Positions 1,955 through 57,575 of a stretch of DNA of 64,000 nt are shown here, piece by piece. Position numbers and translations under genes: made by a program. How positions within the stretch are numbered: position 1 is the first letter of the stretch; every line of letters begins with the position of its first letter. Below the pieces are notes generated by a model. The model was not told where the DNA came from. It ran no database searches and saw nothing but the letters and a program-made list of their open reading frames with translations. The stretch is from a virus. The stretch spans positions 1 to 64,000 of the IMG/VR virus record IMGVR_UViG_3300020424_000002; one strand, 5' to 3'.

Positions 1955-3232
1955 CTATGATATATTTATAGTACCACCCATTCCACTATGATTTGGACAA
2001 TAATAGTATAAAGTACTATGATTAAAACCAGCATCTACTATTATTTGTGTATAAGCACCAGATGAGCCTGAAGTTCCGACATAATTTATATATCCATTAG
2101 GCCCTAACTGAGAACCACCATTATGTGTCCCATCACTGGTTGTAGAGAATCTTATAGGATGACCACTATTTGATGTATCTGATTGTGAGAATCTATATGT
2201 TGTCCCTCTAACTAAACTAAATGTTTGTTGTTGTACACCATTGTAGTAGTATGCATTACCTGTTTCACCATATCCACTTTTAGAATCAACTGTAATTTGA
2301 TAAGTAGTAATATCTTGTCCACCAGAACTACCATCGTCATCTTGTGATTGTCCACCACCAGTTGGTATATTAAATTGGTCTTCTGGTGATTGAGAACCTA
2401 TAGCACCTATTGTTGTTCTATCAGTTAGATAGTCTGTATTATTACCATCAAAAAAGTTTATTGTTTCAGTTATATTTAAAGGGCTGGTCTCTGGGTTTGC
2501 ACTTGTTGGATTAGGTATTACTGATATTTCACTTTGTCTTCCAGCTGCACTATCTACCTGTCCATCATCTGTAATGTATGTTCTTGCACGAACATCTCTA
2601 ATAATCTCTGATTTGCCAATAGAACCATATAGATATGTTTTCATTTCAAAGTTCATTGTCCAAATAATTACTCTTCGAGATTGAAAATCACCCTCATATT
2701 GGTCATCATAAGATACATCCTGTAATACAATAGGGACATCTCTTTTTTCACTAGTGCCTGGCACTGTGGTCATTGTAACTGTAAAGTCTGGTGTAAAGAA
2801 AGGTAATATCTGTTCTACTATCTGTAATGCATCTTCGGTATTCTTTGCCATTGCATATAAACCAAATTGTATATTATAAGGAACTGGTGCAAACTGTGTT
2901 TTTAAAACTGTATTATCCGATGCATCTTGTAGTTTATATTGTTTTAATTTACCAAGTTTTCTTTCTGCATCGTAGTTTAAACCTGTAATATCAAATGCAA
3001 GTCTTGGTAAAGTCATTGCAACTCTTGATGTAGAACTGTCCATTAAGTCTGCAGCTTGGTCTAATCTTGCAATGAATTTTTGTTTTGGGCCATAGGATAG
3101 TGGAACTCTTATGTTTTGTGTTTGAGTTCCATCTGCATTATCTCTTTGAATATCAATCTCATTGAACATTGTACCAAAAACTGATACTGCTCTTTTGATT
3201 GCTTCATGATAGAAATGTGATTTACCTAACAT
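1955..3232 (-). CDS. 15: Tail completion and sheath stabilizer gp15 with C-terminal cupredoxin-like domain
   Basis: Residues 1-230 look like gp15, the hexameric tail terminator that caps sheath and tube: an N-terminal helix followed by IRVPLSYGPKQKF and a DVSYDD/IIWTMNFEMK strand pair. T4 gp15 is 272 residues; this protein is 425. The extra C-terminal part is a Gly/Ser/Asp-rich linker (about 230-310) and a beta domain (about 310-425) with His358, then Cys412, His415 and Met418 in a C-x2-H-x2-M loop. That is the spacing of amicyanin-type copper sites. Start ATG has an AGGA upstream. The gp15 part is confident; copper binding is inferred from the motif only. Confidence 0.85.
   Translation of the reverse strand: MLGKSHFYHEAIKRAVSVFGTMFNEIDIQRDNADGTQTQNIRVPLSYGPKQKFIARLDQAADLMDSSTSRVAMTLPRLAFDITGLNYDAERKLGKLKQYKLQDASDNTVLKTQFAPVPYNIQFGLYAMAKNTEDALQIVEQILPFFTPDFTVTMTTVPGTSEKRDVPIVLQDVSYDDQYEGDFQSRRVIIWTMNFEMKTYLYGSIGKSEIIRDVRARTYITDDGQVDSAAGRQSEISVIPNPTSANPETSPLNITETINFFDGNNTDYLTDRTTIGAIGSQSPEDQFNIPTGGGQSQDDDGSSGGQDITTYQITVDSKSGYGETGNAYYYNGVQQQTFSLVRGTTYRFSQSDTSNSGHPIRFSTTSDGTHNGGSQLGPNGYINYVGTSGSSGAYTQIIVDAGFNHSTLYYYCPNHSGMGGTINIS
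1963..1970 (-). promoter_or_regulatory. Late promoter candidate upstream of gp16-gp17
   Basis: TATAAATA on the minus strand, the T4 late -10 element read by gp55/gp33-type factors. It sits inside the last codons of gp15, 22 nt before the gp16 ATG. In such an AT-rich genome the octamer also occurs by chance, so position is the main support. Confidence 0.45.
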
Positions 3233-3422
3233 TTTTAATTCCTAAGACATAGTTTTCTGCAGCGTTTTCTGCATACATTTCACTTTTTTCTGTATATACT
3301 TCGTCCTTTATCCAAAGTTTATCTTCAAAGAACCTACACCCAAAACCATATTCTGCTTGATATACTCTTGCTTCTTTATTTCCATGTTGAAAAGTAGATA
3401 GTTCTTTAACAAAATTTATCAT
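3222..3422 (-). CDS. Small hypothetical protein between gp14 and gp15
   Basis: About 66 residues, with no recognised family. It overlaps the gp15 start by 11 bp. Two adjacent ATGs are possible (3425 and 3422). I chose the second because a TATAAATA element (3435-3428) lies exactly 5 nt upstream of it, so a late transcript would begin on that ATG; a transcript from this promoter would exclude the first. There is no Shine-Dalgarno sequence. The protein is acidic and aromatic, with no membrane segment. The gene is supported by tight packing and its own promoter. Confidence 0.6.
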   Translation of the reverse strand: MINFVKELSTFQHGNKEARVYQAEYGFGCRFFEDKLWIKDEVYTEKSEMYAENAAENYVLGIKNVR

Positions 3423-3427
3423 CATAA

Positions 3428-3435
3428 TATTTATA
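3428..3435 (-). promoter_or_regulatory. Late promoter candidate with 5-nt gap to an ATG
   Basis: TATAAATA on the minus strand overlapping the gp14 stop codon. With the T4 spacing (element at -13 to -6) the start site is the A of the ATG at 3422, giving a leaderless mRNA. Confidence 0.5.
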
Positions 3436-4348
3436 GTGACCCAAATGGATTACTTTCCGAGAAGTCCACGATGTTTGCACCAGCAGTTTCAAAGTCTTTA
3501 TTATCTGCAAGTGGGTCATTTGGTGTTACATATTGGTCTGGTGCAGTTGTTATAGTTCTACTTGCACCAGAAGTTGCACCTACGATATTACCAGCATTTG
3601 CATTTGATGATAATACAAACATTGTATTTGTTGCTGGAACATCTGTATCATTGAATGTTATATTATTAATAATAAGTGTTTTACTACTTTCACCTTCTGA
3701 GGTATATGATACAACTTGACCAGATACAGTTTTTCCTGTATTAACAGTTTGTGTGACTGTTTCTCCATGAACAAAATCTCCAGAACCAGAACCTAATGTC
3801 ATAGACACTTGATATGCAAACGAATCTTCAACACCATCAAGTTCTGCAATACCAGTATCAAATGATTCGTGTGAGTATTCAAAAGTTTCACATTGTAGTT
3901 TGAACACATTAAGTTTACCCAACTGATAGAATGGGTTTTCATGTTCTACAAATCTAATTTCAAATACTTGGTTTCCAAGTGGGAAATAAATTAAGTCACC
4001 CTCTTGAGGTCTTGTTGATGTGACTAAGTTTTGGTCTAATGATACAAATCTATTCCATGTTCTTCTAGATAAAACGAAGGTTGCTTGGTCTCTAACTTCT
4101 ACACCAAATTTAGAAAGTAAATCTCCTTCGCCCTCAAATCCTTCGGTATTTTCAATATACATTTCAACTGAATATGCATCATCAAATTGTGAAGAAGTAT
4201 CTTCACCGAACAATTCGTCTTCATCTACAATCTTTCTTGGTAAATAAAAACATTCATGACCATAGAATCTCAAAGACTCTACAACTAAATCTTCGTGTAA
4301 GTCTTGTTCTGATTTGACTGCATGGTTAAAATATACATTAGTAGGCAT
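3431..4348 (-). CDS. 14: Neck protein gp14 (head completion)
   Basis: 305 residues; T4 gp14 is 256. gp14 and gp13 form the neck that seals the filled head and docks the tail. The diagnostic N-terminal part is present: NVYFNHAVKSEQDLHEDL, then GHECFYLPRK, FDDAYSVEMYIE and FEGEGDLLSKFGVEVRD, matching gp14 of marine T4-like phages. From about residue 190 there is an added Thr/Ser/Gly-rich beta region (GSGSGDFVHGETVTQTV) of the kind also seen in this phage's large structural proteins. It lies 3 bp downstream of gp13, in the same operon. Confidence 0.9.
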   Translation of the reverse strand: MPTNVYFNHAVKSEQDLHEDLVVESLRFYGHECFYLPRKIVDEDELFGEDTSSQFDDAYSVEMYIENTEGFEGEGDLLSKFGVEVRDQATFVLSRRTWNRFVSLDQNLVTSTRPQEGDLIYFPLGNQVFEIRFVEHENPFYQLGKLNVFKLQCETFEYSHESFDTGIAELDGVEDSFAYQVSMTLGSGSGDFVHGETVTQTVNTGKTVSGQVVSYTSEGESSKTLIINNITFNDTDVPATNTMFVLSSNANAGNIVGATSGASRTITTAPDQYVTPNDPLADNKDFETAGANIVDFSESNPFGSL

Positions 4349-4351
4349 CGA

Positions 4352-5167
4352 TTACCCCATCATTATAGCAGATTCAGTCTGTAATAAATTACTCTGTTCC
4401 TCTAACTTTTCTATTTCTGTATTTGCATCTTCAAGGATTGTTCTACCTTGTAATGTTACTCCGCCTGGTAATTGTATACCATCAAACTTAGATAAATTTG
4501 TACCCCATTGTCTTTTAATCAATGCAGTAACATATTTCTTCAACCAGACATCATTATATACATCTGTGAATTGTGTTGGGTCTATCTTTCTATAACAATC
4601 TATGATAATATATTCACCAGATGAAACTGCATTATTCCAGTCCATATCTAGATATAATCTATTTTGTGCTTTATTGAATCTAATTGGTACTTGACCAATT
4701 AATATTTCATCTAACAATTGAATATGGTTTTGTACCATTTCATATTGCACGATAGATGTAGAAGAGATATCATAAAGGTCATTTAACCTTAATTGATATC
4801 TGAGGTCAAACATATTAAGTCCAGACTTGTCTACGAATGGAAATACTCTTAATACTGAGTAAACTGATTCTGGAAGAACAACATATCCTTGTCCTTCTTT
4901 AAATGTCATATTACTAGATATATGTGAACCTGTAGATGATTGTGACATACTTGAATCTGCTTTTTGATTTGCAAGGTCGTTATCGTTAATTTGATGTTTT
5001 AAATATGTTCGAATAGTACCATCATAATGATACTCTGCAAAGTATTGTAATGCATCGTCTATGATATCATCAATTTGGTCATCATCCACATTAATTTCTA
5101 TAACTGGTTTACCCAGTTGTCTTAATGCATATTCTTTAAGTGTTGCTTTGCTATTTGGAGCTGCCAT
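4352..5167 (-). CDS. 13: Neck protein gp13
   Basis: 271 residues; T4 gp13 is 309. It is the partner of gp14 in the head-tail connector. The N-terminus (KEYALRQLGKPVIEINV followed by a run of Asp and DALQYFAEYHYDG) and the C-terminal VTALIKRQWGTNLSKFDG segment are hallmark gp13 regions. The start ATG has TAGGAT upstream. A late-type element CATAAATA (5212-5205) lies 37 nt before the ATG. It is translated just before gp14. Confidence 0.92.
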   Translation of the reverse strand: MAAPNSKATLKEYALRQLGKPVIEINVDDDQIDDIIDDALQYFAEYHYDGTIRTYLKHQINDNDLANQKADSSMSQSSTGSHISSNMTFKEGQGYVVLPESVYSVLRVFPFVDKSGLNMFDLRYQLRLNDLYDISSTSIVQYEMVQNHIQLLDEILIGQVPIRFNKAQNRLYLDMDWNNAVSSGEYIIIDCYRKIDPTQFTDVYNDVWLKKYVTALIKRQWGTNLSKFDGIQLPGGVTLQGRTILEDANTEIEKLEEQSNLLQTESAIMMG

Positions 5168-5204
5168 AACATAATCCTATTAGAAATTTATTTTTCTCTA
5201 ATAC

Positions 5205-5212
5205 TATTTATG
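5205..5212 (-). promoter_or_regulatory. Late promoter variant upstream of gp13
   Basis: CATAAATA on the minus strand, one base from the T4 late consensus, in the short gap between the 83-residue membrane protein gene and gp13 and 37 nt before the gp13 ATG. Confidence 0.35.
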
Positions 5213-5464
5213 TTATTTTTGATTTGAAAGTAAGAAATCGTCTATCTTTTTGTTAATAGTATCTAAAGAATCCATCATTCTTTCCATGTCTTTATGTAAA
5301 TCTTCCTTAGAAACAAAGTCTCTATTAACTTCTTCTCTGGTACGATTGAGTAGAATTTCTAATCGTTTAAGTTCATTATGTTGTTGAATTATAAACCATA
5401 GGAAAGGCCCTACAATTCCAGTAAGAACTAGATTCCATAGTAAATGTCCTGTTTCCATATCCAT
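5213..5464 (-). CDS. Small membrane-anchored coiled-coil protein
   Basis: 83 residues. An N-terminal membrane segment (LLWNLVLTGIVGPFLWFII, about residues 8-26) is followed by a charged, heptad-like helix running to the end (about 30-80), so it is probably a single-pass protein with a cytoplasmic coiled coil. No family is recognised. It sits between an oxygenase gene and gp13. An AAAGGAAT ribosome binding site precedes the ATG. Such proteins near neck genes could act in lysis control or membrane association, but nothing in the sequence shows this. Confidence 0.7.
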   Translation of the reverse strand: MDMETGHLLWNLVLTGIVGPFLWFIIQQHNELKRLEILLNRTREEVNRDFVSKEDLHKDMERMMDSLDTINKKIDDFLLSNQK

Positions 5465-5493
5465 AATAGATTCCTTTAGTATAATATATACAG

Positions 5494-6213
5494 TTATTTA
5501 GGGAATCTTATGTTTCCACTGTCTGGACAAACTTCAAACACTGGTATATCGTTTACCTTTCTTGCTTCTATTTCTGGATGATTGTTTAGTTCTGTCTGGT
5601 CACCTTTCCAAGTAAATGAATTATTGAATGCAATCGAAATCCTATCAAAGTCTGTTTCTAATGGTTCTACATAATGTTGCATTGCAGAAGGAAATAATAA
5701 TACATCACCCTCTCTTGGTTCTACAACAAAGTTATCTCTAGTTCTTGCAGTTACATGTATGAAGTTTGACATATGTTTTGTTTGACCACTTAAAAATTGT
5801 AAAACTCCAGAACCCCTAGTTTCTTCTGGAACAGAAATATAAGCAACACCACTATACCAACAGCCTGGATGTGTATGCACATTATTATATCCATGTTGAT
5901 AGTTTATGTTTACCCAATAATTACCATGGTCTAAAATAAAGTTTTCATGATGTTCTCCACAATGAAATGGGAATACTTCTTTATTAAAAACTTCTTCTAC
6001 ACCATTAAGTAAAGATTGAAACATTGGTCTATCATTTACACCATCTACAGACTGCCAACCAGCACCATTATTAGACCTTCTTCGTCCTATAGGGTCTTCC
6101 TTTCTCATGGTATAGCATTCTTTTTTCATTGCATCTAGTTGTTCTTGAGAGACTAAACCTAAATCAAGTAAATTTGCTTTAAACACATGCCATGAAAACA
6201 TTGGTAAATACAT
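5494..6213 (-). CDS. 2OG-Fe(II) oxygenase, type seen in T4-like phages (first)
   Basis: 239 residues. The double-stranded beta-helix core is visible: VHTHPG (His113, His115), WYSGVAYISV, then a second metal His180 in SAMQHYV and Arg191 in FDRISIAFNN for 2-oxoglutarate. The H-x-H first motif and SGVAYI strand suit the 2OG-FeII_Oxy_5/TIGR02466-like group rather than the classic H-x-D prolyl hydroxylases. The substrate is unknown; phage members have been suggested to act on DNA repair or virion proteins. The start overlaps the next gene's stop at 6213. Confidence 0.8.
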   Translation of the reverse strand: MYLPMFSWHVFKANLLDLGLVSQEQLDAMKKECYTMRKEDPIGRRRSNNGAGWQSVDGVNDRPMFQSLLNGVEEVFNKEVFPFHCGEHHENFILDHGNYWVNINYQHGYNNVHTHPGCWYSGVAYISVPEETRGSGVLQFLSGQTKHMSNFIHVTARTRDNFVVEPREGDVLLFPSAMQHYVEPLETDFDRISIAFNNSFTWKGDQTELNNHPEIEARKVNDIPVFEVCPDSGNIRFPK

Positions 6214-7088: not shown

Positions 7089-7258
7089 AATCGCTCGTGT
7101 AAATAATATAGTATAAGTTTTATTATAAAGTCAAAAGTCATGATTGCACCAGCAACCTCAACTGAACCTGTAAGGACATAACCTATTAATCCTGTAGTAA
7201 CTGTTGCAAGTATTCTCCATGAAAATGCTTTTGCAATTGACTTACTTTGTGAGTCCAA
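7070..7258 (-). CDS. DUF2061 family membrane protein
   Basis: A short membrane protein with the DUF2061 signature: SKSIAKAFSWRILATVTTG, a hydrophobic segment, and the ending LILYYLHERLWNN. Two transmembrane helices are predicted. There is no ATG before the motif. A TTG at 7306 would overlap the upstream gene by 65 bp. A TTG at 7258 has AGGAGA 4 nt upstream and leaves a 17-bp overlap, so I prefer it (62 residues). Family function is unknown. It overlaps the start of the 291-residue gene by 19 bp. Confidence 0.72.
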   Translation of the reverse strand: MDSQSKSIAKAFSWRILATVTTGLIGYVLTGSVEVAGAIMTFDFIIKLILYYLHERLWNNVQ

Positions 7259-8030
7259 GCTGTCTCCTAATTTCTGTTGCAGAAATTGATTCAGTCTCTT
7301 TATCAAAAGATTCTTGTTCTATTTTATAACCTACATCTCTTCCATAAGTTATATTGACAATGTTTGGTACTTTTTGTATAATATAATGCACATTCTCTTC
7401 ATATCCTTCACCCAGTAAAAACATTTTTATGTTTTGTTTTACTGTTTTAAAATCAAAAGGATTCTTTTTACTGTTCTTCATTGCACGAATCATAATACAA
7501 ACTTGACCTGTTTTATCATAACATCTTTTAAATAATGCAAGATGACCATCATGAAAAGGTTGAAACCTACCCAACATTTGTGTAGTTGGTTTATTAATAT
7601 CAAATCTTCTGTTCTCTGCAAGTAATTCTCTTGCAATGACTTCGGAATGTAATTCACCATTTTGGTCTTCTACCCAATAGTCAACTTCATTTTTTAAAGG
7701 TCTTTGGAATGCTTTATTTGTATCTGCATATCTACCTTTTTCTATAGTATCCATAAAGATAATATAATCTGGGTTTAAGATTTGTCTTCCTTGAGTAAAA
7801 GGACAAACAAAATCCATAATTGCAAAAGGTTTATCGGAATCTCTGCATAGGTCTTTCATTCTATGCACCTGTCTGAGTCTACCTTCTTCTGAGAAATCCC
7901 AATCATCATGTTGGGCTCGGATTGCATCAGCATTGAAATGGTCTGCATCTAAATGTTCAAGTAGACATTTAGAAATGTAAGTCTTTCCACTGCCAGGCAA
8001 TCCAAAAATTAAAATTGTTTTTGTTTTCAT
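7242..8030 (-). CDS. Fusion of P-loop kinase and NMN-adenylyltransferase-like nucleotidyltransferase
   Basis: 262 residues, two domains. Residues 1-145 are an adenylylsulfate-kinase-like P-loop fold: Walker A GLPGSGKT at 10-17, then HFNADAIRAQHDDWDFS and IMDFVCPF. Residues 150-262 are a cytidylyl/NMN adenylyltransferase-like Rossmann domain: GRFQPFHDGH with the nucleotide-binding H-x-G-H (His160, His163), and the late ISATEIR motif (249-255). The C-terminal half resembles NadM, pointing to NAD metabolism; the N-terminal half may phosphorylate a small sugar or nucleoside, as in NadR-type enzymes with the order reversed. The exact substrates are inference. Confidence 0.8.
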   Translation of the reverse strand: MKTKTILIFGLPGSGKTYISKCLLEHLDADHFNADAIRAQHDDWDFSEEGRLRQVHRMKDLCRDSDKPFAIMDFVCPFTQGRQILNPDYIIFMDTIEKGRYADTNKAFQRPLKNEVDYWVEDQNGELHSEVIARELLAENRRFDINKPTTQMLGRFQPFHDGHLALFKRCYDKTGQVCIMIRAMKNSKKNPFDFKTVKQNIKMFLLGEGYEENVHYIIQKVPNIVNITYGRDVGYKIEQESFDKETESISATEIRRQLGLTK

Positions 8031-38719: not shown

Positions 38720-39821
38720 TCCCTTCTAGTACTAGATTAGAAACAGATATCTCTTTTGGGAAACCAAGGAACTCTAAGAACGAACATAGAGTAAATGGTA
38801 TCGGTATACCAGATGGTATAAGCATCCCAAGATATTTTGAAAGTTTTTCTAGAACTGCTTCAAGTAACATTTGAGGTAGATTTTTTATGAAGTTATCAAT
38901 TCTATCTCTTAACTTATCTATATTCCAGTTTGGAAAATCTACTTTTTTAAACTCACCTATTTCTTCTAAATCAATTAAGTCACCTAATGTCTTTGGTAAA
39001 TCAAGTCCTACTAATTCTGCTGAATCAGCTATTTCTGATACAAGTGGTAAAGGGTATGTAAGTAATTCTGTTTGAAAATCTTTACCTGCTTCTTTAAATT
39101 GTTTTTTTAATCCCATAAGAAATTTATCGGTATCAAAATCTAGTTGACCACCATTTACAACCATGCCTGGCAAACTTAATAATAATGCTAGGTAATCTGG
39201 AAATGGGTCTGGTAATGCTTCAATTGTTTCTATTGCAGCTTCCAGAGCTTCATTTTCTAGTATCTTTGCTAGTGTACCAAAAACATTTCCTTTAAATAAT
39301 TCTTTTACTTTTGCAACAAACTCTTTCCATGCTTTAGTCATCTTAATTGCTGGTGCATCGATACCATCTGTACCATCCCAGTTTTCTAAAACAAAATCTG
39401 GAACAAGTAAATCTATTATATCATCACCAGCTTCTTGAAATTGTGTTAAGAGTTGTCCTTTGTAATCTGGGTCTGTTATTAATAGTCTAACATCAACTGA
39501 TATACCTGTAATTGGTTCTACTACAACCATAGGAACTTTTATTATTTTACTGAATACTTCTGCAAGTTTTACCAGTGGATATAATTTAAATTCTTCAATG
39601 ATTGCTTGGATTTTATTTTCCCATTCTAATTCTGGTATATCTAAAGTAATACCATCCCAAGAATGAGATAAAGGAAATGCACCTAATAATTCTTCAAGAG
39701 GTTTAATATATTCCCAACCATATTGATTCCCAATAAAAATTATTATTTTTTCTAATTCATCAGCAGTTGGTACAACAACCTTTGGACATGGGACTTTAAC
39801 TGGTGCAGTAGAAGTTGTCAT
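38715..39821 (-). CDS. Helical virion-region protein between gp5 and gp25
   Basis: 368 residues, with no recognised family. It is mostly amphipathic helices, with repeated Leu/Pro-rich segments (EALPDPFPDYLALLLSLPG, LLTYPLPLVSEIAD) and a C-terminal hydrophobic stretch (LGMLIPSGIPIPFTLCSFLE). Large marine T4-like phages carry an unnamed structural protein here. It overlaps gp5 by 1 nt. A baseplate hub or wedge accessory role is likely from location, and membrane contact is possible. Confidence 0.68.
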   Translation of the reverse strand: MTTSTAPVKVPCPKVVVPTADELEKIIIFIGNQYGWEYIKPLEELLGAFPLSHSWDGITLDIPELEWENKIQAIIEEFKLYPLVKLAEVFSKIIKVPMVVVEPITGISVDVRLLITDPDYKGQLLTQFQEAGDDIIDLLVPDFVLENWDGTDGIDAPAIKMTKAWKEFVAKVKELFKGNVFGTLAKILENEALEAAIETIEALPDPFPDYLALLLSLPGMVVNGGQLDFDTDKFLMGLKKQFKEAGKDFQTELLTYPLPLVSEIADSAELVGLDLPKTLGDLIDLEEIGEFKKVDFPNWNIDKLRDRIDNFIKNLPQMLLEAVLEKLSKYLGMLIPSGIPIPFTLCSFLEFLGFPKEISVSNLVLEGT

Positions 39822-40912
39822 TAATCATACTTAGTACCATTTAATGATACATTACCTTTTATTCTTACTGCTTTAGTTTTATTCGTAAGTGTTAAATCAA
39901 TATTCCCATCAGCAGTCAAACTAATATTACCACCATCTTCGGTAGTACCTTTAGAAGCAATTAAATTATAATTACCATTGGAGAGTTCTATATCTGCACT
40001 TCCACCAATTAATATTTTCTTATCTTTTAAAGTAATCTCATAAGAGTCATTGACTATTTTCATAGTTTGAGAACCATCTGGTAATACTTCTAAACGAGTC
40101 CCAGACCTATGATACATGTGAATTCTTTCGGATGCTGGTGTGTCATCTAATTCTAGGACATGACCAGATTCAGATTCTATTACATGATTAAAAGGATAAA
40201 CTGGATTTACTACTGACTTACCTCTAGTTAATTCTTTGACTGTATTACCCTTAGACCTTTCAATCATATTATTTGGATAATTACTTGCACCACCAGTCGT
40301 TGCAATTTTATTTACATCGGAGCTAGACCTTTTAGTATAAGACTCTTTTGGATATCTTACACCTTTATCTGGATTATTAATCTTAGTACCAGAACCATCT
40401 AACTTCTGGTCTAAACTATCTGGGATTCTTGGTGAAGTGTCTAGTGCTTGAGTTAGATTCCAGTTACGACCATTATTACTATTTTTTGCACCATCGATAG
40501 AGTTGATATAATCTTTTCTAGTATCTCTACGAGGGTCATTGAATCCATGTTCGGCACTACGAGATATTGGATTAGAACCATCACCCTGTGGTATTTTCCA
40601 GTCATTACTTGGTAACCCAAACAGTGAACCCATGACTACAAAGTCTTGCATATCATATTCATCTCGGAACATACCCATGACAGTTGTACCTTCAACCAAA
40701 CCATGTGGAGACAGACCTAGACCAGACAAGGATGCTGTAGAGGTCGGCATAAGGACATCACACCAAGGTAAGTCTGGAGTTGCAATAAGAGTCTTGTCAT
40801 CGGTATGCAGTCCATAGATACGCACACGAACTCGACCAACTTGTAATGGGTCGTTTCGGTCTTCGACTACTCCTGTATAAAAGTTTGATTGTAATCCTGT
40901 AAATTTCGGCAT
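39821..40912 (-). CDS. 5: Baseplate hub needle gp5 without lysozyme domain
   Basis: 363 residues; T4 gp5 is 575. Residues 1-115 are the OB-fold (VVEDRNDPLQVGRVRVRIYG ... WCDVLMPTSTA ... GTTVMGMFRDEYDMQDFVVM). There is then a 110-residue polar linker and a C-terminal beta-helix needle (HVIESESGHVLELDDT, IHMYHRSGTRLEVLPDG, then short repeats ending IKGNVSLNGTKYD). The T4 lysozyme domain is absent, as in cyanophage gp5, so cell wall digestion must be done by another protein. The ATG overlaps the PanD stop as TGATG, indicating coupled translation. Confidence 0.9.
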   Translation of the reverse strand: MPKFTGLQSNFYTGVVEDRNDPLQVGRVRVRIYGLHTDDKTLIATPDLPWCDVLMPTSTASLSGLGLSPHGLVEGTTVMGMFRDEYDMQDFVVMGSLFGLPSNDWKIPQGDGSNPISRSAEHGFNDPRRDTRKDYINSIDGAKNSNNGRNWNLTQALDTSPRIPDSLDQKLDGSGTKINNPDKGVRYPKESYTKRSSSDVNKIATTGGASNYPNNMIERSKGNTVKELTRGKSVVNPVYPFNHVIESESGHVLELDDTPASERIHMYHRSGTRLEVLPDGSQTMKIVNDSYEITLKDKKILIGGSADIELSNGNYNLIASKGTTEDGGNISLTADGNIDLTLTNKTKAVRIKGNVSLNGTKYD

Positions 40913-41289
40913 CAGTTTAATCCTAATAGTTCTCTGTACATTCGGTCTTTAGGGTCGATTATTTTTATTCTAGGTTCATGTCGTAAAGGTAGAACCTCGT
41001 AGTTATCGTCTAGGTAAATGTAAGAACAAATAATCAGTTCATCACCTATGTTGGTAAGATGAGCTCCTGCACCATTGACTGAAACTTCATTCGAACCTCT
41101 GGGTAAAGGTAGGACATAAGTCGTATGTCGGTTACCATTGGTTTTATTATAGACATCAACCTGTTCATGGACTAGGAGTCCCACCTCATCCATCCAGTCT
41201 TCGTCAATTAAAATAGAACCTTCATAATCTAAATCTACATCGGTACAAACTGCACCATGTATTTTACTATTTAAAAAACATCGTGTCAT
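40912..41289 (-). CDS. panD: Aspartate 1-decarboxylase (PanD)
   Basis: 125 residues, against 126 for E. coli PanD, and alignable without gaps through residue 77. The enzyme cleaves itself at Gly24-Ser25 to form a pyruvoyl cofactor and makes beta-alanine for pantothenate and coenzyme A. All the key residues keep E. coli numbering: Lys9, His11, Tyr22, Gly24-Ser25 (in DYEGSI), Arg54, Thr57-Tyr58 (in TTYVLP) and Asn72 (SVNGAGAH). The C-terminal tail differs. The gene is sandwiched between a mini membrane protein and gp5 with 1-nt overlaps on both sides, so it is expressed with late baseplate genes. Identification is strong; activity is inferred. Confidence 0.92.
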   Translation of the reverse strand: MTRCFLNSKIHGAVCTDVDLDYEGSILIDEDWMDEVGLLVHEQVDVYNKTNGNRHTTYVLPLPRGSNEVSVNGAGAHLTNIGDELIICSYIYLDDNYEVLPLRHEPRIKIIDPKDRMYRELLGLN

Positions 41290-41474
41290 TATTTAATCCT
41301 TGAATGTTTACCATTCCCTTTATTATTACCAGAATCATATTCTGTTAATGCTTTAAAATATTCTCTTTTTTTAATATTAAATTTATACCAAAAAATATTC
41401 ATACCTCTAGGGTTTGAATGTTCCCCTATCATTAAAATAATACATGCAAGTAAAGGTATGAATATAAATTCCAT
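41289..41474 (-). CDS. Mini membrane protein upstream of PanD
   Basis: 61 residues. An N-terminal membrane helix (EFIFIPLLACIILMIGE, about residues 2-18) is followed by a basic, polar tail. Its stop overlaps the panD start as TAATG, and it begins 1 nt after the 46-residue ORF stop, so the three form one unit. No family is recognised. Confidence 0.55.
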   Translation of the reverse strand: MEFIFIPLLACIILMIGEHSNPRGMNIFWYKFNIKKREYFKALTEYDSGNNKGNGKHSRIK

Positions 41475-41475
41475 A

Positions 41476-41616
41476 TTAAAATATCCAAAATAATAAAAGA
41501 GTAAATAATACTCCCTTAATAAAACAAATCCATGCTAATTCATAGTCATTAATACCAGTTAAATCAATAAATTCATACATCATTTCCTTATGTTTGTCTA
41601 TTATTTTTTCTAACAT
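41476..41616 (-). CDS. 46-residue mini membrane protein
   Basis: ATG with AGGAG 6 nt upstream. The product starts with charged residues (MLEKIIDKHKEMMYEF), then DLTGINDYELAW, and ends with a membrane segment (CFIKGVLFTLLLFWIF). It lies directly before the 61-residue gene in the panD cassette. The good ribosome site, the membrane segment and the tight spacing support a real gene; its function is unknown. Confidence 0.5.
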   Translation of the reverse strand: MLEKIIDKHKEMMYEFIDLTGINDYELAWICFIKGVLFTLLLFWIF

Positions 41617-41760
41617 ATATTTCTCCTATGTTTATTATTATTATTTAGGAGTCCCAGATAAACTCTAGGAGTCCCAGAACTTCCCAAGACATTTTAGGGC
41701 TGAGCAAAGGGCACAAAAAAATACCCTAGGAGTCCCAAACTACTGTCCCTTCGAGGCTCT
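41617..41760 (-). other. Intergenic region with three 11-bp repeats
   Basis: A gene-free gap between gp27-like and the panD cassette. On the minus strand the sequence TGGGACTCCTA occurs three times (41737-41727, 41676-41666, 41656-41646). GGACTCC is nearly self-complementary. A TATTTTTTT run lies next to the first copy. It may be an operator array, an RNA stability element or a weak terminator. No ORF with a ribosome site is seen inside it. Confidence 0.45.
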
Positions 41761-43275
41761 CTAATATTGTGGTTCTGGCCCATGGTCTGCATGAGTATCC
41801 ATAGACACTTGATATCCATCCGAGGTGACTGTGAGTTGTGTTTCGAGTCCATCTCCTGTCCCTCTCCAAGTAATACCTTCTACAAGCATCTTGCCATTGT
41901 GCGTTATCTCATCCTTCACTGTAGTAGTCGGAGTTGGTTGTTTGATATCTATATTGATGACCATACCAGATGAAATATTAGTTCTCCCAGATATCTGAAT
42001 GTCCATACGATTACTCTCGAATAGTTTTTCTACTCTATCTCTGTTTAATTTATCACTCTCAGTCCCATATAATACACTATTTCCACTCGGATTTACTCCT
42101 TGACCCATGGAAAAAGGTGTATTATAATCAAAAGTGATAGACGCGCCTGGGTTTTCTATGATACTATCTCCCTTATGGGCAACAGTAGCGGTATCTAAGA
42201 CGCTTCCAACGCCCCCATCTGGTGGTATTCTGATAGATTCATTAGATAATCGGAAATTTGGCGCCTCACTTAAGGACTTTTTCTTGTAAGTAACTGCATC
42301 TCCACCTCTTTTTCCCTGTTTGAGAGAGAATTGTTGTGTAAATTGACTGTCAACAGTGGTCAAAGTCTTTGCAATAGGGTTATATACCTGTATAGCACCC
42401 CCATATAGGCCGTGAGAGTGATTATCTAAGACATTATGTGTGTTTCTCTTAATGTAGGAGAGTATGTCGTTCCCGCGTGCATCTACGAAGTCGTAATTAA
42501 AAGAGTCATCTCCATCTCCCATACGCGGAGCAAACTTCACATCTCCCTCTAAGTACTCTACTTTCATCATAGACTCCACATTGTGAAACTTAAAGCCATT
42601 TAATGCTGTCTGATAGAAGTAATAAGAGTCGCCCCAAGGCTTATCGGTGTCGTCTGAGGTGTGGTCTCTCAGCCACTCTAAGGTTTTATGCACTGACCAA
42701 TTAGGTACTAGGACTGAGGTTTCATCTCCCTCGGACTGAAAGACACTAAAGTAATTACCGAGTTCCTTCCCCCCTGGCGTATGCACTTTAGCATTGCTTT
42801 TATTCCCCTTAAATAATAATTTATCTTGACATATTTTATTTAATATATCTCCAGTCTTGCCTCTATACATCTGAGATATTCTCTGAGTTCTTGCTAAATA
42901 TTCCAAAGGAGAACAAAATTCTAGATTATATAATGTATTTGTAGGGTTATCTATGTCTCTGTAATGGACTGAAACATTAAATATTCGGAATACTTGGTCA
43001 ATTTGTTGGTCTGCTGGGACTATTTCTTCGTTTCCCTGTATACCACCGATATGTATTCGAATATATTCTTGACCAGTAAATCCAATACGATTAAAGAAAT
43101 TTGCAGAGTCCGCTAGTGTAATAGAACCTGTAAGAAACATCTGATAAATACTTTCAGATATCTCAAAGTCTACCATTAAATTACTTACTTCATAGGAATT
43201 ACCTTCATTATTACTAATAGTAATACTCTCAATCCTATAAGAATTAGGTTGATTTCTTCCGACTGTAATAGGCAT
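41761..43275 (-). CDS. 27: Baseplate hub protein, gp27-like
   Basis: 504 residues; T4 gp27 is 391. The layout fits gp27/gpD hub proteins: first beta domain with YEVSNLMVDFEISESIYQM and SITLADSANFFNRIGFTG, RIFNVSVHYRDIDNPTNTLY, a middle segment with a GKTGDILNKICQDKLLF helix and a SVHKTLEWLRDHTSD helix, and the last beta barrel (ISGRTNISSGMVINIDIKQ, then MLVEGITWRGTGDGLETQL). It lies next to gp53 and close to gp5, its structural partner. Codon use is visibly more GC-rich than its neighbours. Pairwise identity to T4 gp27 is low, so the name is by fold pattern and order. Confidence 0.7.
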   Translation of the reverse strand: MPITVGRNQPNSYRIESITISNNEGNSYEVSNLMVDFEISESIYQMFLTGSITLADSANFFNRIGFTGQEYIRIHIGGIQGNEEIVPADQQIDQVFRIFNVSVHYRDIDNPTNTLYNLEFCSPLEYLARTQRISQMYRGKTGDILNKICQDKLLFKGNKSNAKVHTPGGKELGNYFSVFQSEGDETSVLVPNWSVHKTLEWLRDHTSDDTDKPWGDSYYFYQTALNGFKFHNVESMMKVEYLEGDVKFAPRMGDGDDSFNYDFVDARGNDILSYIKRNTHNVLDNHSHGLYGGAIQVYNPIAKTLTTVDSQFTQQFSLKQGKRGGDAVTYKKKSLSEAPNFRLSNESIRIPPDGGVGSVLDTATVAHKGDSIIENPGASITFDYNTPFSMGQGVNPSGNSVLYGTESDKLNRDRVEKLFESNRMDIQISGRTNISSGMVINIDIKQPTPTTTVKDEITHNGKMLVEGITWRGTGDGLETQLTVTSDGYQVSMDTHADHGPEPQY

Positions 43276-45425: not shown

Positions 45426-45433
45426 TATTTATA
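45426..45433 (-). promoter_or_regulatory. Late promoter for gp48-like operon, overlapping the gp4 start codon
   Basis: TATAAATA on the minus strand, 35 nt before the gp48-like ATG. It overlaps the A of the gp4 ATG. The 44-bp region is an imperfect mirror of itself. Confidence 0.65.
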
Positions 45434-53594: not shown

Positions 53595-53870
53595 TTAATA
53601 CCTTCCACTTCTTTTGTAAGCTTCCAAGGCTTGTTCTTCACGAATCTTATCAATCTTAATCTTTCTCTTCCATGCATTGATTTTCTTTTGTCTTCTTGAA
53701 GAAGGTTTTTCATAATATTGTCTCTCACGAACCTCTGCAACAACACCACTTCGTTCACATTTCTTTTTGAATCGTCTCATTAAGACATCAAATGGTGGTG
53801 GGCCTGATGGTTTTTTGGGTTTTCTTCCCCATTCTTTTGACCTTTGTGGTCTTCGATTATAATGTTTCAT
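53595..53870 (-). CDS. rpsU: Ribosomal protein bS21 homolog
   Basis: 91 residues; bacterial bS21 is about 70. Residues 27-70 carry the bS21 core: [38 protein letters not shown] and then a basic helix. The N-terminal 25 residues ([19 protein letters not shown]) are an extra basic, proline-rich segment. bS21 helps the 30S subunit start translation near the mRNA 5' end and the anti-Shine-Dalgarno. A phage copy could bias ribosomes toward phage messages (inference). It overlaps gp33 by 4 nt. Confidence 0.9.
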
Positions 53871-54097
53871 ATTGGTAGTTTACCTTTTCCTCGTTTTGCA
53901 TTTGGTTTTAACATATTATAAGATATTGCATCATTCTCTATTTTTTCTTTTAGAGGTGGTGTTATCAAATTCTTTACTGACTCTGGGTCTAGATGTTCTT
54001 TTTCACAATAGTATATTATTGCATCGATATAGTTTAATCCTTTTTGCAATACAACAGTTTCTATGGCTTCTGCAAATCTTTTTTTAGTGAGTATCAT
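53867..54097 (-). CDS. 33: Late transcription co-activator gp33
   Basis: 76 residues; T4 gp33 is 112 and marine homologs are shorter. The pattern [39 protein letters not shown] and [14 protein letters not shown] matches cyanophage gp33. gp33 bridges RNA polymerase and the sliding clamp at late promoters, which fits the many TATAAATA elements here. Overlaps of 4 nt on both sides put it in an operon with a membrane protein and bS21. Confidence 0.82.
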
Positions 54098-54486
54098 GCC
54101 TCTTTATCGATATCCCATTTAATTCTTTTTTCATAGTTTGGTTTCTTCAACCTTGAGTCCATTTTCTCTATTCTTTGTTGTGTTCTATATGCAGATACCC
54201 AGTTACCGCCATTCCTTTCTGCTTCTTTAAATATGTAATTAGTTATCATGATTGGTATGAGGACTGCCATGTGAATTATGATTGACCAAACGATACTATA
54301 TCCTATCCAGTTCATCCAGTGCAGTGCAACTACACCAAAATAACAAGACCACATTATGAATAATGCAAGGGTAAAGTATGATTGAATTGAAGGGTCGTGT
54401 ATGTGTCTTAAAGGATTGTATCGATTGTCCATTACAACTCTCCAACAATCAATAACAAAAAACACCAGTCTTTTTAAAATATCCAT
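54094..54486 (-). CDS. Two-segment membrane protein
   Basis: 130 residues. Two hydrophobic segments (SYFTLALFIMWSCYFGVVAL, about 36-55, and IGYSIVWSIIIHMAVLIPIM, about 62-81) are flanked by charged ends; the C-terminal 45 residues are highly charged. No family is recognised. It is the first gene of the gp33-bS21-gp59-gp32 string. A sigma70-like promoter ends 6 nt before the ATG, so the mRNA would be leaderless. Confidence 0.68.
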   Translation of the reverse strand: MDILKRLVFFVIDCWRVVMDNRYNPLRHIHDPSIQSYFTLALFIMWSCYFGVVALHWMNWIGYSIVWSIIIHMAVLIPIMITNYIFKEAERNGGNWVSAYRTQQRIEKMDSRLKKPNYEKRIKWDIDKEA

Positions 54487-54492
54487 AATATA

Positions 54493-54520
54493 ATTATACT
54501 ACCAAACTCTATATTGTCAA
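54493..54520 (-). promoter_or_regulatory. Sigma70-like promoter 6 nt before ATG
   Basis: TTGACA (54520-54515), a 16-nt spacer and TATAAT (54498-54493), then TATATT and the ATG at 54486. The expected start site is the A of the ATG. Confidence 0.7.
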
Positions 54521-54524
54521 GTCT

Positions 54525-54974
54525 TTAATATCCATATCCATTTGGGTCTTCCCATCTACCCTGTTGGTTATGTTTTCTATGTGCAGTTTTTTCTTCCCAG
54601 TTTTCTATTGCTCGTTTGATTCCTTCTTCTGCAAGGACTGAACAGTGCAGTTTGATTGCAGGCAATTCAAGAGCATCTGCAATTTCTTTATCTTTAATAA
54701 GTTTTGCTTGTTCAATTGTTTTACCTTTAAGCATTTCAACAAACATTGTTGATGATGCAATAGCAGAACCACATCCATAAGTTTTGAACTTGACATCTTC
54801 AATTAAATCTCCATTCATTTTAAGGTCGAGTTTCATAACATCACCACACGCAGGAGCTCCAACTAATCCAGTTGCAACATTAGGGTCTTTAGGGTCGAAC
54901 CTACCGACTGCATGTTTCTCTGGATTGTTTAGAACATCTTCGAATCTTTGTACAACTTTTTTACTATATGCCAT
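54525..54974 (-). CDS. iscU: Iron-sulfur cluster scaffold IscU
   Basis: 149 residues; bacterial IscU is about 128. The three ligands are present: Cys43 (GAPACGD with Asp45), Cys68 (KTYGCGSAIASS) and Cys111 (LHCSVLAEEGI). The chaperone recognition motif is LPAIK (104-108) in place of LPPVK. The N-terminal VNNPEK/GxxD part is normal, and the C-terminal 20 residues (HRKHNQQGRWEDPNGYGY) are extra. It assembles [2Fe-2S] clusters for transfer to apoproteins. No phage IscS or IscA is seen in the window, so host IscS would supply sulfur (inference). Confidence 0.92.
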   Translation of the reverse strand: MAYSKKVVQRFEDVLNNPEKHAVGRFDPKDPNVATGLVGAPACGDVMKLDLKMNGDLIEDVKFKTYGCGSAIASSTMFVEMLKGKTIEQAKLIKDKEIADALELPAIKLHCSVLAEEGIKRAIENWEEKTAHRKHNQQGRWEDPNGYGY

Positions 54975-55089
54975 GATTTTTTTAAAAATTAAGATTATAA
55001 CTATTATAAATATAAATGATAATTATCTATAACCAGATAGTATATCACTATTTTTAACCCTAAAACTATTTATAAGGAGAACAATTCTC
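54975..55089. promoter_or_regulatory. Divergent promoter region with two facing late elements
   Basis: A very AT-rich 115-bp gap between iscU (minus) and a 45-residue ORF (plus). TATAAATA lies on the plus strand at 55005-55012 and on the minus strand at 55074-55067, pointing across each other. This is the second such arrangement in the window, but base composition makes chance matches likely here. Confidence 0.4.
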
Positions 55090-55227
55090 ATGATGAGTGC
55101 TGTTAATTATATTATTGAACATCGATGCGAAATTTGTGAAAAAATAAGAGAAGCTTTTTCATTTTCTTTTTTCATGTTGGCACCAATTGCAATACCATTT
55201 TTAATAATGTGGATGGCTAGTCACTAG
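55090..55227 (+). CDS. 45-residue mini membrane protein (plus strand)
   Basis: Starts ATGATG after AAGGAG (spacing about 10-13 nt). It has an N-terminal part with a Cys pair (EHRCEICEKIREAFS) and a membrane segment (FFMLAPIAIPFLIMWM), ending with ASH. It runs convergently into the end of the nuclease gene (4-bp overlap). Isolated plus-strand orientation with a ribosome site argues for a real gene; its function is unknown. Confidence 0.5.
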   Translation: MMSAVNYIIEHRCEICEKIREAFSFSFFMLAPIAIPFLIMWMASH

Positions 55228-55898
55228 TAACCATACATCCCTTTATAACTATCTCTAAGTTCTAATAACTTAGTGTGGTAAACTTCACTCGGTTTTTCTA
55301 TGAACAACTGACTTGTCCCATTACTCACTGCTATTAAGGTGATAATGTTCTCTACCTTCTTACCAGTTAAATCTTCAAACATTTTTGCATATGCAGTTTC
55401 TTGTATAAAATAGTTTTGTATCCATTCTGTCTTTTTTGGTTTTGCACTGGTTTTAAAATCAATGACTGATATCTCACCTTCCCACTCTGCAATACAATCT
55501 ACTCTACCAGCAAGTTGTAGGTTATGTGAATAAAGTGGTGATTCAAGTGCATGAACAGTTCCAATCTGATTTAATTCTTTTTCTACCGAAATAAATGCTT
55601 GTTGTGTAGTGGGCATTGCACCCTTAAACTTTTCTTCAAAGTTATCATTTCTAATATAGTCTTCGAATAGTTGGTGTGCAGATGTTCCATGTCTTGCAGC
55701 TTGAGTTGATATCTTGTTTGCTTGTTTTTCACCAACTTTTTTTCTCCACTTCTTAATTGCTTCTTTATTTAAAAGTCCAGTAACCGATGTCACTGATGGA
55801 TACTTCTCACCAGTTGGTGTGATATAGTATCGTTTACCATCTATATTTTCTGTAGGTAATGATTGAAAATCATAATCTAATATTTCAAAGGTCTTCAT
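55224..55898 (-). CDS. PD-(D/E)XK exonuclease, RecB-like
   Basis: 224 residues. Motifs are GEKYPSVTSVTGLLNKEAI, the helix RHGTSAHQLFEDYI, Glu in VHALESPLYS, then LAGRVDCIAEWEG and VIDFKTSAKPKK, giving E...D...D-F-K (RecB/Cas4-type core). Related genes are common in cyanophages near the DNA metabolism block. It may help degrade host DNA or process recombination ends. It overlaps the 71-residue upstream gene by 4 bp. Confidence 0.85.
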   Translation of the reverse strand: MKTFEILDYDFQSLPTENIDGKRYYITPTGEKYPSVTSVTGLLNKEAIKKWRKKVGEKQANKISTQAARHGTSAHQLFEDYIRNDNFEEKFKGAMPTTQQAFISVEKELNQIGTVHALESPLYSHNLQLAGRVDCIAEWEGEISVIDFKTSAKPKKTEWIQNYFIQETAYAKMFEDLTGKKVENIITLIAVSNGTSQLFIEKPSEVYHTKLLELRDSYKGMYGY

Positions 55899-56110
55899 GG
55901 AAATATTCTTTGTGGTTTTACATCCTCTGTCATTGCATCAAGTTCATTTATATCATGTTTACCATGAATTGTGACCTTAAATGTATCATCTGCTTTAATA
56001 AACTCTACCTCAAATGGTAGGTCATAACCTTTACCTTGTAGAATTGCAACTCTATCATTAAACTCTCTGTATTCGTCTCTTGTTAGTATTGTAGGTTTAA
56101 GTTCCATCAT
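55895..56110 (-). CDS. Small hypothetical protein
   Basis: About 71 residues with the start at the ATG at 56110, which has GGGAG 5 nt before it; an ATG 12 nt further up (56122) is less likely. It overlaps the upstream oxygenase end by 14 bp. Beta-rich (PFEVEFIKADDTFKVTIHG), acidic, no recognised family. Confidence 0.55.
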   Translation of the reverse strand: MMELKPTILTRDEYREFNDRVAILQGKGYDLPFEVEFIKADDTFKVTIHGKHDINELDAMTEDVKPQRIFP

Positions 56111-56693
56111 TATAACTCCCATATTCTTTACTTCCTATTGGCCCTGTATATGCAATATCAAATGATATTGAATATGATGGTTTATGACTATGCCATACCA
56201 CTGAATGTCCTATCCAAGATGGATGTATAATCACTTTACCTTTAGGCATATTAGTAAAAGGTGTGTAATCTTGATTAAAATCCGAAGGTTTTTCAACTTC
56301 TGGAAAATACATGTTTTGATATCCAGCATTAGGATTTACATAATATGTAGTATGTCCAGCATCTTCTGGAAAAAATGTTCCAGCCCATGAACAATTTTGA
56401 TGCCAATGAACTGGTAATGCGCTTCTAGTTTCATCATATACATTTAACCATAACTGATTAATTTTCATAGGTTGTTTAACAAAACCTACTTCAACTATTA
56501 AATTATTTGCACACTCTAATATCTTTTCCTCTAATTCTGGTAAATCTAAATCTAATACATTAGAATTAACAACACCTTTTCTATTATGTCCATCTACAAA
56601 TTTTTCATCTTTTGGTATTTCATATTCGTAATCAATATCACCAAGAAAAAATGGTGTTTGAAACATTCCTAGTACAGATTCATTCTCTTTCAT
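56097..56693 (-). CDS. 2OG-Fe(II) oxygenase-like protein (fourth)
   Basis: 198 residues. The core shows PVHWHQNCSWAGTFF (His96, His98), YYVNPNAGYQNMYF, and a second metal candidate in IIHPSWIGHSVVWH (His157 or His163), closing with YSISFDIAY. The H-x-H spacing resembles the 2OG-FeII_Oxy_5 group. The usual Arg before the last strand is a Lys or absent, so 2-oxoglutarate binding is uncertain. It overlaps the upstream hotdog-like gene by 14 bp. Substrate unknown. Confidence 0.7.
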   Translation of the reverse strand: MKENESVLGMFQTPFFLGDIDYEYEIPKDEKFVDGHNRKGVVNSNVLDLDLPELEEKILECANNLIVEVGFVKQPMKINQLWLNVYDETRSALPVHWHQNCSWAGTFFPEDAGHTTYYVNPNAGYQNMYFPEVEKPSDFNQDYTPFTNMPKGKVIIHPSWIGHSVVWHSHKPSYSISFDIAYTGPIGSKEYGSYNDGT

Positions 56694-57252
56694 GTTTCAA
56701 ATCTTTACAGATTGCTTTATATGTACCAACCTGTTCTCCAGTTTCAACCACTCGTTGAACTCCTGTTTCAGTTATAATACCATCGTTGTTTACAAATGAT
56801 GTATTTTCTGTCTCTAGTGTTTGACCTACTAATATAGCTTTATCATAGGTATGACTAATTTCTATCATAGGACAAAATCTTCTCATTGCAAATAAACAAT
56901 TAAGACCAGCAGTTGCATCACTAATAGCTCCTCTTGCAGGCCCACCCATTTTTGTCCTAGGGTTGTTTTCCACTGAATGAAATTCTTTTACAGTTAAAAG
57001 AGTAATAAATCCTTGTGCTTGTCCTTCTTCAACTCTGACTCTCCATCCCCAAAAGAAATCTGGGTCAATCCAGTTACATGATATCATTTGATTAAATGCA
57101 GAAGGTCTATTTTGTTTTTGGGTTTGAGAAAAGACACCTTCTCCTTTAATCAATCCCCTATCTTTTGATTGGGCTTTCATAGTTTCTATTAAAGTCTCAT
57201 CACTTGCAAAGGGACTAAATCCTTCATTTTTTATATATTCTTTTATATTCAT
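56680..57252 (-). CDS. Possible hotdog-fold protein (thioesterase-like)
   Basis: 190 residues. The C-terminal half (about 95-185) has a hotdog-like pattern: RTKMGGPARGAISDATAGL (GG..a..D..G), CPMIEISHTYDKAILVGQTL and GVQRVVETGEQVGTYKAIC. Before it is a WGWRVRVEEGQAQGFITLL strand pair. PaaI-type thioesterases share this layout, but no catalytic residue can be assigned. An acyl-CoA hydrolase is a weak possibility. Confidence 0.5.
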   Translation of the reverse strand: MNIKEYIKNEGFSPFASDETLIETMKAQSKDRGLIKGEGVFSQTQKQNRPSAFNQMISCNWIDPDFFWGWRVRVEEGQAQGFITLLTVKEFHSVENNPRTKMGGPARGAISDATAGLNCLFAMRRFCPMIEISHTYDKAILVGQTLETENTSFVNNDGIITETGVQRVVETGEQVGTYKAICKDLKHERE

Positions 57253-57575
57253 TCTTTTATTATACCTTGTCTTTTTTGAATCTCTACATGTTTTTTAATG
57301 ACTTCATCTGTCTTAACTTCTTTTGCACTTCTTCTACGATGTGTCTTTGCAAGTTCTGACCTAGGATGTTTATCTGCAACTTTAGACAACACCTCATTAA
57401 ATCCACCAGACTTACCAAAATCAGTTCTTGAACCAACATTTGATACAATGTTAGGTGATGAAATTCTTTTTTCAAGATGTGGATTGTCTTCTGCAAACTT
57501 ATCTAAGTCTTTATAAGACATTCTATGTTCTTCCATTTCATCTGTTTTGGTATTGTAGAATTCATATGTAGGCAT
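57249..57575 (-). CDS. FmdB-like conserved phage protein without zinc cysteines
   Basis: 108 residues. The start MPTYEFYNTKTDEMEEHRMS resembles FmdB-type regulators and a set of cyanophage proteins, but the CxxC zinc pair is missing. A SYKDLDKFAEDNPHLEKRIS helix and a basic C-terminal RRRSAKEVKT follow. It may be a small regulatory or virion protein. It overlaps its downstream neighbour by 4 bp and the next by 1 nt. Confidence 0.62.
   Translation of the reverse strand: MPTYEFYNTKTDEMEEHRMSYKDLDKFAEDNPHLEKRISSPNIVSNVGSRTDFGKSGGFNEVLSKVADKHPRSELAKTHRRRSAKEVKTDEVIKKHVEIQKRQGIIKE

Follow-up and report, generated by a model that had tools for sequence, protein, structure and literature searches.

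A predicted aspartate 1-decarboxylase gene in front of the baseplate hub gene of T4-like phages: a likely auxiliary metabolic gene

Introduction

Aspartate 1-decarboxylase (PanD) is made as a proenzyme which cleaves itself before Ser25, whereby the serine is turned into a pyruvoyl group. The enzyme converts aspartate to beta-alanine, and PanC joins the beta-alanine to pantoate. PanD is well known, and annotated copies exist in two cultured phages, Jace and 2-1. Gp87 of Gordonia phage Jace is annotated as aspartate decarboxylase and holds the catalytic residues. Like the gene described here it is phage-encoded, but it belongs to another kind of phage, has ParB-like and terminase small subunit genes nearby and is 34-36% identical. 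Achromobacter phage 2-1 likewise encodes a PanD-like protein (L045). Here the gene is located beside the DNA polymerase, and histidines replace Arg54 and Asn72, so that activity is doubtful. Most other INPHARED matches were left out of consideration; they come from unannotated or draft records and look like bacterial DNA.

Host-type metabolic genes are also carried by the pelagimyophages, T4-like phages of the HTVC008M group (PMC7029224); the main text of that study mentions neither a decarboxylase nor pantothenate. Among open-licence papers we found none describing a phage panD as an auxiliary metabolic gene, and coenzyme A supply was not among the marine-phage metabolic targets that we found described. 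Here we analyse a panD gene within 64 kb (the window) of a virus record of 146,136 bases.

Results

Family assignment and catalytic residues

The features of the locus are summarised in Table 1. The panD reading frame has the position and the 125 residues of the original prediction, which had not given the strand (minus). The PanD identity proposed there holds in a profile search: the protein matches PF02261 far above the cut-off (E 2.5e-34, 118 bits against 25) over profile positions 1-113 of 115. It also passes the NCBIfam equivalog model TIGR00223 (110.9 bits, cut-off 106) and finds E. coli PanD (1ppy) by phmmer with an E-value of 2.9e-24. Identity is 38% to E. coli PanD and reaches about 50% for other bacterial PanDs. 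None of the PHROG families covers the protein, and a PADLOC search for a defence role of panD matched nothing.

Table 1. Positions of panD, its neighbours and related elements in the window.
Feature	Position	Strand	Basis
panD, aspartate 1-decarboxylase proenzyme, 125 aa	40912..41289	-	PF02261, TIGR00223, predicted fold compared with 1ppy
Gly24-Ser25 codons, predicted self-cleavage site forming the pyruvoyl group	41215..41220	-	No variation among all complete homologues from viruses and bacteria
OB-domain baseplate hub protein, gp5-like; begins 1 nt within the panD stop	39821..40912	-	PF06714 E 1.9e-19; PHROG 430 E 1.7e-71
61-aa small ORF, hydrophobic N-terminus; 1-nt overlap with panD start	41289..41474	-	ORF list
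46-aa small ORF ahead of the 61-aa one; C-terminus hydrophobic	41476..41616	-	Translation; similar ATG-initiated start in aligned contigs
TGGGACTCCTA repeat array between PHROG 350 gene and panD	41646..41737; copies 41727-41737, 41666-41676, 41646-41656	-	Exact matches
Fourth repeat copy inside panD, codons V36-L39	41173..41183	-	GGGACTCCT kept in panD of the clade A contigs scanned
PHROG 350 tail protein; gene bordering the slot on its upstream side	41761..43275	-	PHROG 350 E 6.7e-45
76-aa gene, NifU-like gene, exonuclease; order as beside panD in L235	53867..55898	-	55%, 81% and 50% identity to L235 proteins
Relative of the small gene adjoining panD in PhoH/exonuclease-block phages; 16 kb from window panD	57249..57575	-	42% to a 98-aa protein of L235 (E 2.5e-23) and 33% to a 77-aa protein of L230 (E 4e-12)

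In the alignment Lys9, His11, Tyr22, Gly24-Ser25, Arg54, Thr57, Tyr58 and Asn72 all appear at their E. coli numbers, as had been claimed for the residues required for cleavage and catalysis. A lack of the Gly-Ser site in homologues had been named as an argument against the assignment; every complete homologue, viral or bacterial, has G24 and S25. The complete viral ones also share K9, Y22, T57 and Y58 without exception, while R54 and N72 are kept in all of them but one (Achromobacter phage 2-1).

The structure was predicted with AlphaFold (pLDDT 90.5, pTM 0.84), a check suggested along with the original prediction, and the model shows the double-psi beta-barrel of PanD. Foldseek against the PDB places the E. 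coli PanD precursor 1ppy first (E 1.4e-14, TM 0.82/0.89), and only PanDs occur among the best 40 matches. Against viral structures the model gave no match at E <= 0.001. The phage protein thus resembles bacterial PanD (PF02261, TIGR00223) in length, predicted fold, cleavage site and catalytic residues. In contrast to bacterial PanD it is phage-encoded, forms a well-supported clade of its own and has its own C-terminal tail. Family models and predicted fold support the view that the product of the window gene is a true aspartate 1-decarboxylase of the pyruvoyl-dependent type.

Selection

panD is under strong purifying selection. Its median dN/dS, taken over pairs with usable dS, is 0.13 and the lowest among the six neighbouring genes compared; gp6 and gp25 follow with medians of 0.18-0.19, the PHROG 350 protein and gp5 with 0.30-0.31, and a 368-aa gene has the highest value, 0.44. 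In a 43-row alignment of the window's PanD clade (clade A) 67 of the 96 first positions never vary. A degenerate gene was rejected on account of the low dN/dS and the conserved catalytic residues.

Genomic slot and upstream region

The genes around panD are T4-like and comprise the tail tube cap, gp53, the PHROG 350 tail protein, gp5, gp25 and gp6. panD indeed lies between a small membrane-like ORF and the gp5-like hub gene, with the predicted 1-nt overlaps on both sides (TAATG at its start, TGATG at its end). Neither overlap is a conserved feature; panD and gp5 lie 4 to about 90 nt apart in other contigs. Upstream, the 61-aa ORF resembles a small membrane protein. It has no family match in Pfam, PHROG or NCBIfam, and its homologues occur in few contigs only (L001, L002, L005, L069).

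From its position, late expression of panD is plausible, as had been suggested, and the gene is probably transcribed together with the late tail genes. The closest T4-late-like TATAAATA upstream on the panD strand is located at 45426-45433, ahead of the entire block; motifs of this type are not more frequent in the window than expected by chance.

HTVC008M carries two small unrelated genes in this slot, Melnitz hypothetical genes and tRNAs over about 11 kb. The slot before gp5 is thus a cargo place in this phage group. Inspected by eye in translation, gp030 of the HTVC008M slot showed no resemblance that would mark it as a PanD remnant.

The interval between the PHROG 350 gene and panD contains a conserved repeat array. 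TGGGACTCCTA occurs in four exact copies in the window including the one within panD, and at most one mismatch gives five occurrences against 0.72 expected, a number reached in 0 of 100 shuffles. The array is also found in the other clade A contigs with upstream sequence, with extra copies in L011 and L018. Over 17 clade A loci GGGACTCCT is the most frequent 9-mer; in some clade A contigs it also lies within gp5 and gp25. The core GGACTCCTA has no further occurrence in the phage record, nor does it appear in the Melnitz stretches compared. Rfam gave no match in the region upstream of panD, and single-sequence folding of the repeat element gave z-scores mostly near zero and no firm structure.

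Relatives and relocation

About 82 distinct viral contigs encode a credible phage PanD, two GC-rich, bacterial-looking contigs being left out. Clade A was found in three scans of viral contigs and comprises 42 distinct contigs with one locus. The orthologues are 77-99% identical to the window PanD and occupy the same slot before gp5, and the contigs with flanks show the order PHROG 350, panD, gp5, followed by gp25 and gp6. Contamination by bacterial DNA was rejected because phage tail genes flank panD in every clade A contig with flanks. In one contig (L034, IMGVR_UViG_3300046171_000106) frame changes interrupt all three of PanD, gp5 and the PHROG 350 gene, perhaps through an assembly error.

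Other phage PanDs lie elsewhere. A second clade (about 58% identity over the best-matching part) is found between genes for ribonucleotide reductase, DUF6433, PhoH and peptidase M15. AMP-binding-like genes are seen near panD of this second clade at L176 967-2202 and, in similar form, in L172, L173, L182, L185 and L230, with weak matches below the Pfam cut-off. Four contigs encode a PanD 71-73% identical to that of the window, and in the two that were read panD lies in this PhoH block as well. In L235 it stands beside exonuclease and NifU genes; the counterparts of these neighbours are located at 53867-57575 of the window, about 13-16 kb from its own panD. In the 149-kb record G004 panD (63.7 kb) and gp6 (106.8 kb) are 43 kb apart.

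In the tree, L235 and the 71-73% group join the window clade in a single clade with support 100/95. The clade of the window PanD is well supported and not nested in any resolved bacterial group. A first tree joined most marine phage PanDs. A fuller tree needs about five label changes, at least two of which are forced, hence a single origin of phage PanDs is not supported. The presence of an intact-looking PanD in about 80 viral contigs and at several genomic places suggests that the gene was retained and moved by selection.

Host range

By gp6 the nearest cultured phages are Melnitz (host OM43) as well as HTVC008M and Mosig (host SAR11), at about 41-44%. The record has 164 ORFs; 90 of them have a match in HTVC008M (mean identity 44%) and 90 in Melnitz (mean identity 43%). 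The phage tRNA-Asp gave no useful match in the genomes searched; in the pelagimyophage study most hosts could not be assigned by tRNA either (PMC7029224). The pantothenate pathway was surveyed in 289 genomes from the class of L100 (Caulobacterales, so Alphaproteobacteria).

Discussion

Taken together, panD is likely an auxiliary metabolic gene making beta-alanine for coenzyme A. The family models, the predicted fold, the catalytic residues, purifying selection and the recurrence in phages all speak for this part of the original prediction; a cell-type metabolic enzyme with a dN/dS of 0.13 is found on a true phage genome, with T4-like genes on both sides. The phage proenzyme would cleave itself between Gly24 and Ser25 to form the pyruvoyl cofactor and assemble as a tetramer. 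It would then convert aspartate to beta-alanine and CO2, and infected cells would gain beta-alanine for pantothenate and coenzyme A via the PanC of the host. PanZ is conserved in E. coli-related enterobacteria only (PMC3496974), therefore we infer that the phage PanD is probably self-activating.

The place before gp5 counts against a metabolic role: it is fixed in 42 contigs and more stable than expected of a freely mobile metabolic gene. This would fit the structural alternative raised with the original prediction, namely that the baseplate hub took over the PanD barrel as one of its virion parts, the enzyme activity being incidental or lost. The 1-nt overlaps with the neighbours in the window and the C-terminal tail KIKIIDPKDRxYRELLGL common to most clade A members point in the same direction. 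However, this tail is missing in L030-L032 and L230-L233, the PanDs of clade A never lose their catalytic residues, and a tetramer would mismatch the symmetry of the hub. Moreover the association with baseplate genes holds for clade A only and not across the PanD family. PanDs that share a supported clade with clade A are found in PhoH/RNR or exonuclease/NifU blocks away from baseplate genes, and such a change of place is easier to understand for a metabolic gene than for a hub part. Related baseplates also work without PanD, since HTVC008M and Melnitz lack it in this slot. We thus regard a virion role as very improbable. A use of the PanD product outside coenzyme A synthesis (a beta-alanine-derived modification, a polyamine-like compound or nitrogen salvage) seems unlikely, though less so than a virion role. 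It would agree with the finding that no further gene of the pantothenate and coenzyme A pathway was recognised among the phage proteins scanned (a part of all), which also counts against the coenzyme A reading, and the AMP-binding-like gene near panD in the other phage clade, itself a weak match below the cut-off, could be read in its favour. On the other hand the known PanD product feeds PanC in bacteria, PanC is common in the class searched, and no partner gene stands beside panD in all its phage settings.

A special case of the coenzyme A reading is that the phage PanD fills a step missing in a SAR11 host with PanB and PanC and no PanD. This is possible while falling short of probable. Three Pelagibacter strains have KPHMT (PanB) and PS (PanC) while ADC (PanD) and PYD3 are 0 (PMC7142369, Table A2), and in the class searched PanC exceeds the cut-off in 168 of 289 genomes as compared to 49 for PanD. 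Furthermore, the closest cultured phages infect SAR11 or OM43, and the GC content of the phage (34.0%) is near that of HTVC008M (33.4%) and below that of Melnitz (37.6%). The 77 shared proteins are split, however: the OM43 phage gives the better score for 44 of them, the SAR11 phage for 33. For the phage tRNA-Ala, identity to the genomes searched in the class does not exceed 89%, and the three best-matching genomes encode a PanD of their own. Nor was panD seen in the stretches read of the SAR11 phages HTVC008M and Mosig. If the hosts are SAR11-like without PanD, the phage would supply a vitamin precursor which the host must otherwise take up. A wider version of this idea is rather doubtful: the phage would complete a vitamin pathway lost by a streamlined SAR11-type host, beta-alanine and coenzyme A would be made from aspartate in infected cells only, and the upstream repeat array, one further copy of which lies in panD, might represent a novel regulatory element linked to this gene.

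Apart from panD, some further genes were noticed. A phage CoaD was rejected, the nucleotidyltransferase-like genes scoring far under the CoaD cut-off. At 7242-8030 of the window a kinase-like domain is fused to a nucleotidyltransferase domain with weak resemblance to NMN adenylyltransferase. L082 carries curli-like and CsgG-like genes at 2426-5877 (about 106.4-109.9 kb of the window's record), as is the case in HTVC008M and Melnitz; for the stretch L082:4948-5877 the identity is 51% with HTVC008M and 46% with Melnitz.
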